Of a DNA stretch of 64,000 nt, positions 19,928-23,136 are shown in pieces; position 1 is the stretch's first letter, and each line of letters starts with the position of its first letter. Source of the DNA: Streptomyces sp. NBC_00190 (GTDB lineage Bacteria > Actinomycetota > Actinomycetes > Streptomycetales > Streptomycetaceae); the NCBI RefSeq assembly GCF_036203305.1, contig NZ_CP108131.1, forward strand, positions 3,472,001-3,536,000, written 5' to 3'. Below the pieces are notes generated by a model. It was not told the DNA's origin, did not search any database, and saw only the letters and a program-made list of their open reading frames with translations. A program made the position numbers and the translations under genes.

Positions 19928-21337
19928 GTGACATCCGCGGTCACGACCGACACGTCCGCCCGCCCCGGCTACGGGCAGCTGCTGCGCACACCCGGCGCCC
20001 TCGGCTTCGTACTCCCCGGCTTCGCCGCCCGGCTCCCCTTCGGCATGCTGACCATCGGCATGCTGCTGCTCATCCAGCACACCACCGGTTCCTACGGCAG
20101 CGCCGGCATCGTCGCCGCCGTCACCGGCGTCTCGATGGCTCTGTCCGCCCCGCTGATGGGCATCTTCACCGACCGCTTCGGCCAGAGCGCCGTCCTGGTC
20201 CCCGTCGTGCTCACGCACGCCGCCTCCGTCAGCGGCCTGGCGGCGCTCGCCCTGCTGGACGCGCCGGTCTGGGCGCTGGCGCTCGCCGCCGTACCCGCCG
20301 GCGCCTCGGTACCGCAGGTCGGACCGATGGTCCGGGCGCGCTGGGCCGCCAAGCTGGAGGGCTCGCCCCTGCTGCCGACGGCCGCCGCCTTCGAGTCCGT
20401 CACCGACGAGTTCACCTTCGTCGTCGGCCCGGTCCTGGCGACCGCGCTGTGCACCGGCGTCCACCCGGCCGCCGGCCTGGTCACCGAGGCCACGCTGACG
20501 CTCTTCGGCGGTCTGCTCTTCGCGGCCCGGCGGGCCACCCAGCCCAAGCCGCACGCCCCGTCGGCCGCCGGCGAGAAGCGCGCCTTCGCGCTGTCCTTCC
20601 CGGGCCTGCGCGTCCTGATCTTCGCCTTCCTCGGGATCGGCGCCGTCTTCGGCGGCATGCAGGTCTCGCTGGCCGCCTTCTCCAACGAGATCGGCAACCC
20701 CGGCGCCAACGGCCTGCTCTACGGCGTCTTCGCGGCCGGCAACATGATCGCCGGCATCGCGATGGGTGCCGTCGCCTGGAAGATCGGCCCGCGTCGCCGC
20801 CTGATCCTCGGCTACATCGGCCTCACCGCCGCCGCGTCCGTGCTGTGGGCCGCCCACTCGATGATCCTGCTGGGCCCGCTCGGCCTGGTCGTCGGCCTGT
20901 TCATCGCCCCCGCCCTGATCACCGGCTACACGATGGTCGAGCAGCTGGTCCCGGCCAACGCCCGGACCGAGGCGTTCACCTGGCTGACCGGTTCCATCGC
21001 CTTCGGGCAGGCCATCGCGGTCACCCTGGCCGGCCGCCTGACGGACGCGCACGGGTCCTCGTACGGCTTCCTGGTGCCGATGGGTGCCACGGCGCTCGCG
21101 CTGGCCACGCTGCTGGCGCTGCGCGCGAAGCTGGCGCCGAAGGCTCCGAGCCGGGTCGTGAACGCGTCCGCGCCGGCCGGCGCCGCTGCTGCAGAGGCCG
21201 CCGCCCCTACCGAGGCCGCCACCGCGGCCGAGGCGCCGAGCACCGCCCCGCGTACCGCGCGGACCGCCTCGCCGGCCGCCCGGAACCGCGTGAACGAGCG
21301 TGGGATGGGTCACCGCGTGCCGGTGACGGTGGACTGA
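19928..21337 (+). CDS. MFS transporter
   Basis: 469 residues from GTG 19928, selected for GGAAAGG about nine bases upstream; the frame is open far upstream but the extra sequence is Arg-rich and unlike a transporter. Twelve hydrophobic segments are visible, beginning with LGFVLPGFAARLPFGMLTIGMLLLIQ, with PLMGIFTDRFGQ as a motif-A-like loop. The C-terminal 60 residues are Ala/Thr-rich and cytosolic. Probably a proton-driven exporter; the substrate cannot be told. Confidence 0.88.
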   Translation: MTSAVTTDTSARPGYGQLLRTPGALGFVLPGFAARLPFGMLTIGMLLLIQHTTGSYGSAGIVAAVTGVSMALSAPLMGIFTDRFGQSAVLVPVVLTHAASVSGLAALALLDAPVWALALAAVPAGASVPQVGPMVRARWAAKLEGSPLLPTAAAFESVTDEFTFVVGPVLATALCTGVHPAAGLVTEATLTLFGGLLFAARRATQPKPHAPSAAGEKRAFALSFPGLRVLIFAFLGIGAVFGGMQVSLAAFSNEIGNPGANGLLYGVFAAGNMIAGIAMGAVAWKIGPRRRLILGYIGLTAAASVLWAAHSMILLGPLGLVVGLFIAPALITGYTMVEQLVPANARTEAFTWLTGSIAFGQAIAVTLAGRLTDAHGSSYGFLVPMGATALALATLLALRAKLAPKAPSRVVNASAPAGAAAAEAAAPTEAATAAEAPSTAPRTARTASPAARNRVNERGMGHRVPVTVD

Positions 21338-21343
21338 TCGACC

Positions 21344-21369
21344 GGAATACGTCACCATGGAGCGTCGTT
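21344..21369 (+). promoter_or_regulatory. SigR-type promoter of the fmdB-like gene
   Basis: GGAAT (21344-21348), an 18-base spacer and GTT (21367-21369) match the thiol-stress sigma-R consensus GGAAT-N18-GTT. It is the only promoter-like signal in the 67-bp gap and is placed correctly for the gene at 21405. Its -10 end overlaps the CIRCE-like operator. Confidence 0.65.
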
Positions 21370-21394
21370 AGCACTCATTGAGTCAGAGTGCCAG
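21368..21394 (+). promoter_or_regulatory. CIRCE-like HrcA operator
   Basis: TTAGCACTC (21368-21376), nine bases, then GAGTGCCAG (21386-21394). The left arm is identical to the CIRCE consensus TTAGCACTC-N9-GAGTGCTAA and the right arm matches 7 of 9 bases. It covers the -10 end and expected start point of the SigR-type promoter and touches the AGGAGG ribosome site. Confidence 0.75.
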
Positions 21395-21404
21395 GAGGAT
21401 ATTC

Positions 21405-21710
21405 GTGCCGACCTACCAGTACCAGTGCACCGAGTGCGGTGAGGGCCTTGAGGCCGTGCAGAAGTTCACCGATGACGCACTGACCGTGTGCCCGAGTTGT
21501 GACGGACGCCTGAAGAAGGTGTTCTCCGCGGTCGGCATCGTCTTCAAGGGCTCCGGTTTCTACCGGAACGACAGCCGTGGCGCCTCGTCGAGCAGCACGC
21601 CTGCCTCGAAGCCGGCCTCGTCGTCCACGACGACGGCTGCCGCCGCCCCCGCCGCAGCGTCCTCCTCGACGTCGTCGAGCACGGGCAGCAGCTCGACCTC
21701 GGCCGCCTGA
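21405..21710 (+). CDS. FmdB-family zinc-ribbon protein
   Basis: 101 residues from GTG 21405, with AGGAGG (21393-21398) six bases upstream. The N-terminus PTYQYQCTECGEGLE and the second knuckle VCPSCDGRLKKVFS give two CxxC pairs typical of the FmdB regulatory-protein/zinc-ribbon family. The last 45 residues are low-complexity Ser/Thr/Ala. The function of the family is poorly known. The overlapping SigR-type promoter and CIRCE operator upstream suggest induction by thiol-oxidative and heat stress. Confidence 0.9.
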   Translation: MPTYQYQCTECGEGLEAVQKFTDDALTVCPSCDGRLKKVFSAVGIVFKGSGFYRNDSRGASSSSTPASKPASSSTTTAAAAPAAASSSTSSSTGSSSTSAA

Positions 21711-21782
21711 CCGTTTCCCCCTAGGCCCCGCCCGCCCTGACCGGCAGCGGGGCCTTCGGCATGCCCGGTTAGGGTGGGCCGC

Positions 21783-22616
21783 ATGGTGAACGCAGAGATC
21801 GGTGTCATTGGCGGTTCGGGCTTCTACTCGTTCCTGGAGGACGTCTCCGAGATCCAGGTGGAGACCCCGTACGGGCCCCCGAGCGACTCCCTGTACGTGG
21901 GTGAGCTGGCCGGCCGCCAGGTGGCCTTCCTGCCCCGGCACGGGCGCAGCCACACCGTCCCGCCGCACAAGATCAACTACCGGGCCAACCTGTGGGCCCT
22001 GCGTTCGGTCGGCGTCCGCCAGGTACTCGGCCCGTGCGCGGTCGGCGGCCTGCGGGCCGAGTACGGTCCGGGCACGCTGCTCGTACCCGACCAGCTGGTC
22101 GACCGTACGAAGTCCCGGGCGCAGACCTTCTTCGACGGGGAGCCGCTGCCCGACGGCAGCGTCCCGAACGTCGTGCACACCACCTTCGCGGACCCGTACT
22201 GTCCGGTGGGGCGCGAGGTGGCGCTGGCGGCGGCACGGGAACGGGACTGGGAGCCGGTGGACGGCGGCACCATGGTCGTCATCGAGGGGCCGCGCTTCTC
22301 CACGCGCGCCGAGTCGCGGTGGCACGCGGCGGCGGGCTGGTCGGTGGTCGGCATGACGGGGCACCCGGAGGCGGTCCTCGCTCGCGAGCTGGGGCTCTGC
22401 TACACCTCGATGGCGCTGGTCACGGACCTGGACGCGGGCGCGGAGACCGGTGAGGGCGTGTCGCACACGGAGGTCCTGAAGGTCTTCGGCGAGAACGTCG
22501 GCCGCCTGCGCGAGGTGCTCTTCGACGCGGTGGCGGCCCTGCCGGCGACGGAATCCCGCGCCTGCCTGTGCACGCACGCCCACGACGGCTGGGACCTGGG
22601 CATCGAGCTGCCTTAG
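21783..22616 (+). CDS. mtnP: S-methyl-5'-thioadenosine phosphorylase
   Basis: 277 residues from ATG 21783. Motifs are IGVIGGSGFYSFL, the phosphate-binding LPRHGRSHTVPPHKINYRAN and the nucleoside-site EGPRFSTRAESR followed by GMTGHPEAVLARELGLCY, as in MTAP/PNP phosphorylases. It splits MTA from polyamine or SAM-using reactions to adenine and methylthioribose-1-phosphate. TAGGGT (21770-21775) lies seven bases before the ATG, indicating a leaderless mRNA; the GTG at 21774 would lie inside that promoter. Confidence 0.92.
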   Translation: MVNAEIGVIGGSGFYSFLEDVSEIQVETPYGPPSDSLYVGELAGRQVAFLPRHGRSHTVPPHKINYRANLWALRSVGVRQVLGPCAVGGLRAEYGPGTLLVPDQLVDRTKSRAQTFFDGEPLPDGSVPNVVHTTFADPYCPVGREVALAAARERDWEPVDGGTMVVIEGPRFSTRAESRWHAAAGWSVVGMTGHPEAVLARELGLCYTSMALVTDLDAGAETGEGVSHTEVLKVFGENVGRLREVLFDAVAALPATESRACLCTHAHDGWDLGIELP

Positions 22617-22653
22617 CGGAGGCTTTGTCAGCGCCTCGGCCTAGCCTCCACGC

Positions 22654-23136
22654 ATGGGGAATTCAGGGGGGACGGCCGTGGCCCGCGCCACGGTGGAGGA
22701 GCTGCGGGAGTTCGCGGCCGAGGCCGGGTTCGGTGCGGCCGGGGGCGGTGAGGAAGCCGCTGAGCTGGGCGGAGGCTGGGTGATGTTGCACGTCGCCGAT
22801 CAGCCGGCCGGCGGGGCCGCGGCACTGTCGCGACGGACCGGGGCGCCGGTGATCACGGTGGCCTACCTCGACAGCGACGTCGGCTTCGTCGAGGCCGCCA
22901 CGTTCGCCGGCGGTCACTGGAAGGCCCTGCTGAACCGGGACACGGCACAGGACTACGGGATACCGCTCGACCGGTTCCCCGTCCAGCCGGCCCTTGAGGG
23001 CGCGCTCGACTGGGCGGCGGCCGCCGGTCTGACCGCCGACCCGGCGGGAGTCCGGACCGCCCTCACCGGCTCCGAGCCCTTCGCGGAGGACCTCGCCGAC
23101 CGGCTGCTCACGGCCCTCGGCCTGGACCTCGCGTGA
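22654..23136 (+). CDS. Conserved hypothetical protein
   Basis: 160 residues of alternating strands and helices, without membrane segments or Cys motifs. Two starts compete: ATG 22654 preceded six bases by TAGCCT (leaderless), or GTG 22678 preceded by a GGGGGGA ribosome site. The central GAPVITVAYLDSDVGFVEAATFAGGHW segment could be a sensor-type fold, but I do not recognise the family. It follows mtnP by 37 bases and may be co-regulated with the pyrF-like gene downstream. Confidence 0.65.
   Translation: MGNSGGTAVARATVEELREFAAEAGFGAAGGGEEAAELGGGWVMLHVADQPAGGAAALSRRTGAPVITVAYLDSDVGFVEAATFAGGHWKALLNRDTAQDYGIPLDRFPVQPALEGALDWAAAAGLTADPAGVRTALTGSEPFAEDLADRLLTALGLDLA

Follow-up and report, generated by a model that had tools for sequence, protein, structure and literature searches.

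A predicted SigR promoter overlapped by a predicted HrcA operator upstream of a ruc-like fmdB gene in Streptomyces

In the window, a 64,000-nucleotide stretch of Streptomyces sp. NBC_00190 DNA, we identified an fmdB gene that is probably the Streptomyces orthologue of ruc from M. tuberculosis. By the same judgement, the region 21344–21394 in front of it is likely to be a stress-integrating promoter under the control of both HrcA and SigR, with a redox-regulated chaperone as the product.

Architecture of the predicted promoter and operator

The elements of this locus, in window coordinates, are as follows.

21344–21369 (+): SigR-type promoter, with −35 GGAAT at 21344–21348, an 18-base spacer at 21349–21366 and −10 GTT at 21367–21369
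21353–21358 (+): CACCAT, a CANNAT element in the SigR spacer; hypothetically a second −10
21368–21394 (+): predicted HrcA site (CIRCE), with TTAGCACTC at 21368–21376, a 9-base spacer and GAGTGCCAG at 21386–21394
21393–21398 (+): AGGAGG ribosome-binding site, whose first two bases are the last two of CIRCE
21405–21710 (+): fmdB/ruc-like gene, 101 amino acids plus stop; Pfam Zn_ribbon_8, 4.5e-15; NCBIfam TIGR02605, 71 bits (cut-off 31.3)
21783–22616 (+): downstream neighbour, S-methyl-5'-thioadenosine phosphorylase; NCBIfam NF005876, 451 bits (cut-off 306)

Both motifs, their two-base overlap and the reach of the operator into AGGAGG had been proposed in an earlier sequence-only reading of this DNA, and the coordinates bear out each of these points. 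The sequence 21344–21369 fits the SigR promoter pattern GGAAT-N18-19-GTT given in PMC9205884, bases 21368–21369 are common to the SigR −10 and CIRCE, and the gene starts with GTG at 21405. A scan of 21200–22900 found no terminator-like site.

CIRCE at fmdB departs from the strict palindromic consensus TTAGCACTC-N9-GAGTGCTAA at 2 of 18 fixed bases, or at 1 of 18 with R/Y allowed. Even with 3 mismatches allowed, nothing else in the window matches, and 100 shuffles gave 0 matches. Genome-wide, the strict palindrome with up to 3 mismatches identified 5 sites, and R/Y at the two variable positions with up to 2 mismatches identified 6; the reversed controls gave 0 in both cases. Of the located sites, groEL2 and groES-groEL1 have two each and fmdB and hrcA one each, so that CIRCE is single at fmdB and double at both groE loci. 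A chance origin of CIRCE at fmdB is ruled out by the shuffles, by the reversed genome controls and by shuffled upstream sequences of loci from across the class, where CIRCE occurred in 0 of 1680.

The genome has one hrcA match (TIGR00331, 337 bits, cut-off 197.2), and fmdB shares its operator with the Streptomyces HrcA/CIRCE regulon in a genome that encodes the same repressor. The hrcA gene, which is followed by a dnaJ-like gene, has the CIRCE-like sequence CTGGCACTC-N9-GAGTGCCAG (L059:2551–2577) 48 bases ahead of its start, and HrcA probably controls its own gene in this strain. The sequence-only reading had placed Streptomyces CIRCE sites at groES-groEL1 and groEL2; this agrees with the accessible part of PMC2687793, which names only these two loci, whereas here hrcA and fmdB carry CIRCE too. 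A second Cpn10 (groES-type) match at G000:C1:3195192–3195449 (−; 69.7 bits) lies near none of the six located CIRCE sites.

Exact matches to GGAAT-N18-GTT numbered 79 in the genome and those to the reversed pattern 11. By itself the motif is weak evidence, and its support comes from conservation: chance was not rejected for the motif alone and was rejected only together with conservation. The genome contains a SigR-type sigma gene (G000:C1:5215927–5216493; SigH_actino TIGR02947, 360.8 bits, cut-off 251.55), which itself has GGAAT-N18-GTT upstream. SigR and SigH are orthologues; Kim et al. 2012 refer in their title to SigR orthologues in actinomycetes. The fmdB promoter fits GGAAT-N18-19-GTT as do those of the S. 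coelicolor SigR thiol-oxidative stress regulon, but differs from them in being overlapped by a heat-shock operator.

The same 26-base match was also present at G000:C1:1663–1688, G000:C1:8632171–8632196 and G000:C2:1663–1688. It thus lies at a distance of 1663 bases from each end of C1, in inverted orientation, and from the beginning of C2, as if terminal repeats were common to the chromosome and a linear plasmid.

Conservation within Streptomyces and across the class

A protein match identified 48 named loci, 23 from Streptomyces and 25 from other genera. CIRCE is present upstream of fmdB in 23/23 of the Streptomyces loci, and so is the overlapping GGAAT-N18/19-GTT (22 with N18, one with N19). 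The expectation in the sequence-only reading that both motifs would be conserved upstream of orthologues therefore holds within Streptomyces, whereas outside the genus CIRCE is broad and the SigR-type site narrow in distribution. A 35-locus Streptomyces set, in which 7 loci were chosen because they had failed or looked odd in a composite-pattern scan of genus genomes, contained 30 loci with N18, 2 with N19, 1 with GAAAT and 2 without the −35. AGGAGG is invariant in all 35, and conservation drops downstream of AGGAGGA.

With up to 3 mismatches the composite pattern matched in 239 of 246 genus genomes, a figure that is an upper bound for fmdB since groE operators may also match at this threshold. 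Among the matches listed, 80 of 84 genomes had a 0-mismatch composite match (counted by eye), the other four being G039 (N19), G231 (GAAAT), and G022 and G130 (without GGAAT). Seven genomes gave no composite match; four of them (G001, G050, G032 and G201) gave no fmdB match, and the other three (G094, G142 and G187; loci L062, L063 and L067) have retained both motifs. In these three an additional base precedes CIRCE, the SigR spacing is still 18 and the overlap is reduced to one base. A looser pattern matched in 129 of 150 genus genomes but also had many reversed-control matches and does not enter these counts.

Loci L065 and L066 (genomes G022 and G130) are without the usual upstream gene end and GGAAT, have an unchanged CIRCE and represent natural SigR-minus variants. 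Because the −35 is missing at both loci, SigR control is predicted to be dispensable in these two Streptomyces genomes. Across the genus, dual control of fmdB by SigR and HrcA is well supported as a prediction by conservation.

FmdB is near-universal in the class, with a match in 193 of 196 genomes. At up to 2 mismatches, CIRCE was identified upstream of fmdB in 72 of 84 non-Streptomyces class loci and in 26 of 30 sampled families; these 84 were taken from the listed, best-scoring FmdB matches rather than drawn at random, and some genera are represented more than once. Loci retrieved twice (L153 and L157) were counted once, and the sample does not include families f20, f25, f26, f27, f29 and f36. 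CIRCE was missing from the loci of f5 (1/1), f15 (1/14, with 3 mismatches), f21 (2/2), f22 (3/8), f28 (2/3), f31 (2/2) and f34 (1/1). Among the 25 named non-Streptomyces loci, CIRCE was present within 150 bases upstream in 14; among the 11 without it are those of Aeromicrobium, Clavibacter, Brevibacterium and Ruania, as well as three loci that lie outside the phylum. A SigR-type site adjoins CIRCE in 4 of the 72 class loci (two in f4, one in f15 and one in f16, the last in the relaxed form GGAAC), and the named non-Streptomyces loci with such a site are those of Mangrovactinospora, Antrihabitans and Nonomuraea (four bases apart). The connection to HrcA is thus widespread, and that to SigR is restricted. 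Loss of the regulators does not account for the missing sites: hrcA scored above cut-off in 45/45 genomes tested, including some without CIRCE at fmdB, and 47/47 matched TIGR02947, 46 of them above cut-off.

The left arm of CIRCE reads GCAGTC for GCACTC in 40 of the 72 CIRCE-bearing class loci (for example L111, L118 and L156), and this one-sided change may tune HrcA binding at fmdB. In the 14 of 24 class genomes for which every CIRCE site was listed, 69 of the 72 sites could be assigned to a gene no more than 900 bases downstream, namely groEL (37), groES (11), hrcA (12) or fmdB (9), and three are unassigned; groES coordinates were available for 7 of the 14. The fmdB site is present in 9 of these genomes and absent in G306, G310, G321, G382 and G390. 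Three 0-mismatch sites (R/Y allowed; G248:C1:5021926–5021952, G261:C25:183781–183807 and G321:C1:2476543–2476569) are near none of the available groEL, groES, hrcA or fmdB coordinates.

Comparison with M. tuberculosis Ruc and alternative readings

In M. tuberculosis, the genes directly repressed by HrcA are three members of the Hsp60/Hsp10 family and a fourth, ruc (Rv0991c), which is induced by SigH from a promoter whose SigH and HrcA sites overlap (Becker et al, 2020, PMC7448276). Rv0991c is listed at 40.3 in a table of SigH-dependent transcription (PMC4803200). According to PMC7448276, reduced Ruc binds zinc, whereas oxidised Ruc is a chaperone in vitro and supports refolding by DnaKJE. The protein is described there as a zinc ribbon with a 17-residue region followed by a variable hydrophilic tail, and primer names place the mutated cysteines at 8, 11, 29 and 32.

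The Streptomyces protein, too, is small and combines a zinc ribbon, in which cysteines 8, 11, 29 and 32 form two CxxC pairs with 17 residues between them, with a low-complexity tail (19 S, 12 A and 7 T among the 46 residues after position 55). The two genes also have in common an HrcA operator overlapping a SigR/SigH-type promoter, predicted from sequence in Streptomyces, and the sharing of this operator with groES and groEL genes. They differ in the gene that follows, the S-methyl-5'-thioadenosine phosphorylase gene in Streptomyces and Rv0990c in M. tuberculosis; regulation and activity, measured for Ruc, are predicted from sequence in Streptomyces. The fmdB gene is most likely the orthologue of Rv0991c, judged by protein family, the positions of the cysteines, the tail and the regulation that the two have in common. 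SCO4084 was rejected as a counterpart, being a 437-aa protein.

An alternative, which we regard as unlikely, is that only the HrcA half of the region is functional, transcription starting from a vegetative promoter with CANNAT as its −10 and GGAAT and GTT being kept by chance or otherwise. This reading draws on the CANNAT element itself, whose C, A, A and T are invariant in 24 of 24 distinct N18 Streptomyces sequences and which occurs at 1 of the first 55 of the 79 GGAAT-N18-GTT genome sites, the one at fmdB. The vegetative −10 consensus is TANNNT, and the hexamers at this position in the two GGAAT-less loci, TAGTAT in G022 and TACCAT in G130, come closer to it. SigR-type sites are also rare beside CIRCE elsewhere in the class, and a figure legend of PMC7448276 shows that M. 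tuberculosis ruc has two starts, 19 bases apart. However, GGAAT and GTT are kept at 18 or 19 bases in 32 of 35 Streptomyces loci, whereas the six bases just before GGAAT, which follow the end of the upstream gene with its conserved final codons, are variable (0.26–1.11 bits over 24 distinct N18 sequences). In addition, a consensus scan of 21200–22900 found no sigma-70-type site or −35 partner, and induction of ruc by SigH (PMC7448276, PMC4803200) speaks for the sigma-factor half of the arrangement. The invariant CANNAT is not explained by SigR alone and may point to an additional promoter or to some other contact.

More doubtful still is a reading that keeps this regulation but has the Streptomyces protein regulate or serve another enzyme instead of acting as a chaperone. 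FmdB-family proteins carry the name of regulators, the FmdB alignment has two matches in the genome of Streptomyces sp. NBC_00190 whose roles may differ, and the C-terminal tail differs between species. Yet in 19 aligned sequences 16 of 55 N-terminal positions are invariant, all four cysteines among them, the operator is common to fmdB, the chaperonin genes and hrcA, and Ruc itself has chaperone activity in vitro (PMC7448276). A redox or chaperone role is, by analogy, the best reading for Streptomyces FmdB. The sequence-only reading had pointed in this direction and had called such a role undescribed, but it is already described for Ruc (Becker et al, 2020, PMC7448276).

It is highly improbable that the inverted repeat is an RNA hairpin by the ribosome-binding site rather than a DNA operator: its right arm touches AGGAGG and its 9-base spacer shows stronger conservation within Streptomyces than an operator would require, but folding was not significant against shuffles (z −0.61 for the leader with the whole repeat, +0.47 from the SigR start), by which an RNA leader element was rejected, and across families the spacer sequence and the distance to the start codon vary while the arms stay.

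Proposed mechanism and significance

Thiol oxidation frees SigR from its anti-sigma factor. In the dual-control model that we favour, HrcA bound to CIRCE would, in unstressed cells, keep RNA polymerase off the −10 and the region of the start, heat or protein misfolding would inactivate HrcA and end repression, and freed SigR would read GGAAT-N18-GTT. The SigR start is expected at about 21376–21378 from the usual distance. As CIRCE covers part of the SigR −10 and this expected start, bound HrcA should exclude polymerase; as the lifting of HrcA and the release of SigR are separate events, the promoter would behave as an AND-like switch, with full fmdB expression when the repressor is off and SigR is on. 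The product would bind zinc via its four cysteines and, upon oxidation, release zinc, hold unfolded proteins and transfer them to DnaK. We infer that the regulation and chaperone activity of M. tuberculosis Ruc also hold in Streptomyces.

The Streptomyces case, the class-wide CIRCE at fmdB and the invariant CANNAT in the SigR spacer were not found in the literature searched. We tentatively propose, with somewhat less than even confidence, that the actinobacterial chaperonin regulon has had Ruc as one of its arms from ancestral times, with HrcA/CIRCE control about as old as the class. Input from the thiol-stress sigma factor, together with a third conserved element in Streptomyces, would have been added or kept in few lineages, and the Streptomyces promoter of about 50 bases would be fully active only with heat-shock repression lifted and under disulfide stress.

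This work extends the Ruc system from one pathogen to Streptomyces, which is harmless and genetically tractable. It also provides natural variants for the dual switch, namely the two Streptomyces genomes without the SigR −35 but with CIRCE and, further, the genomes that keep hrcA but are without CIRCE at fmdB. The distribution of the operator suggests that coupling of a redox-switched holdase to the repressor of the chaperonins is a general feature of the class.
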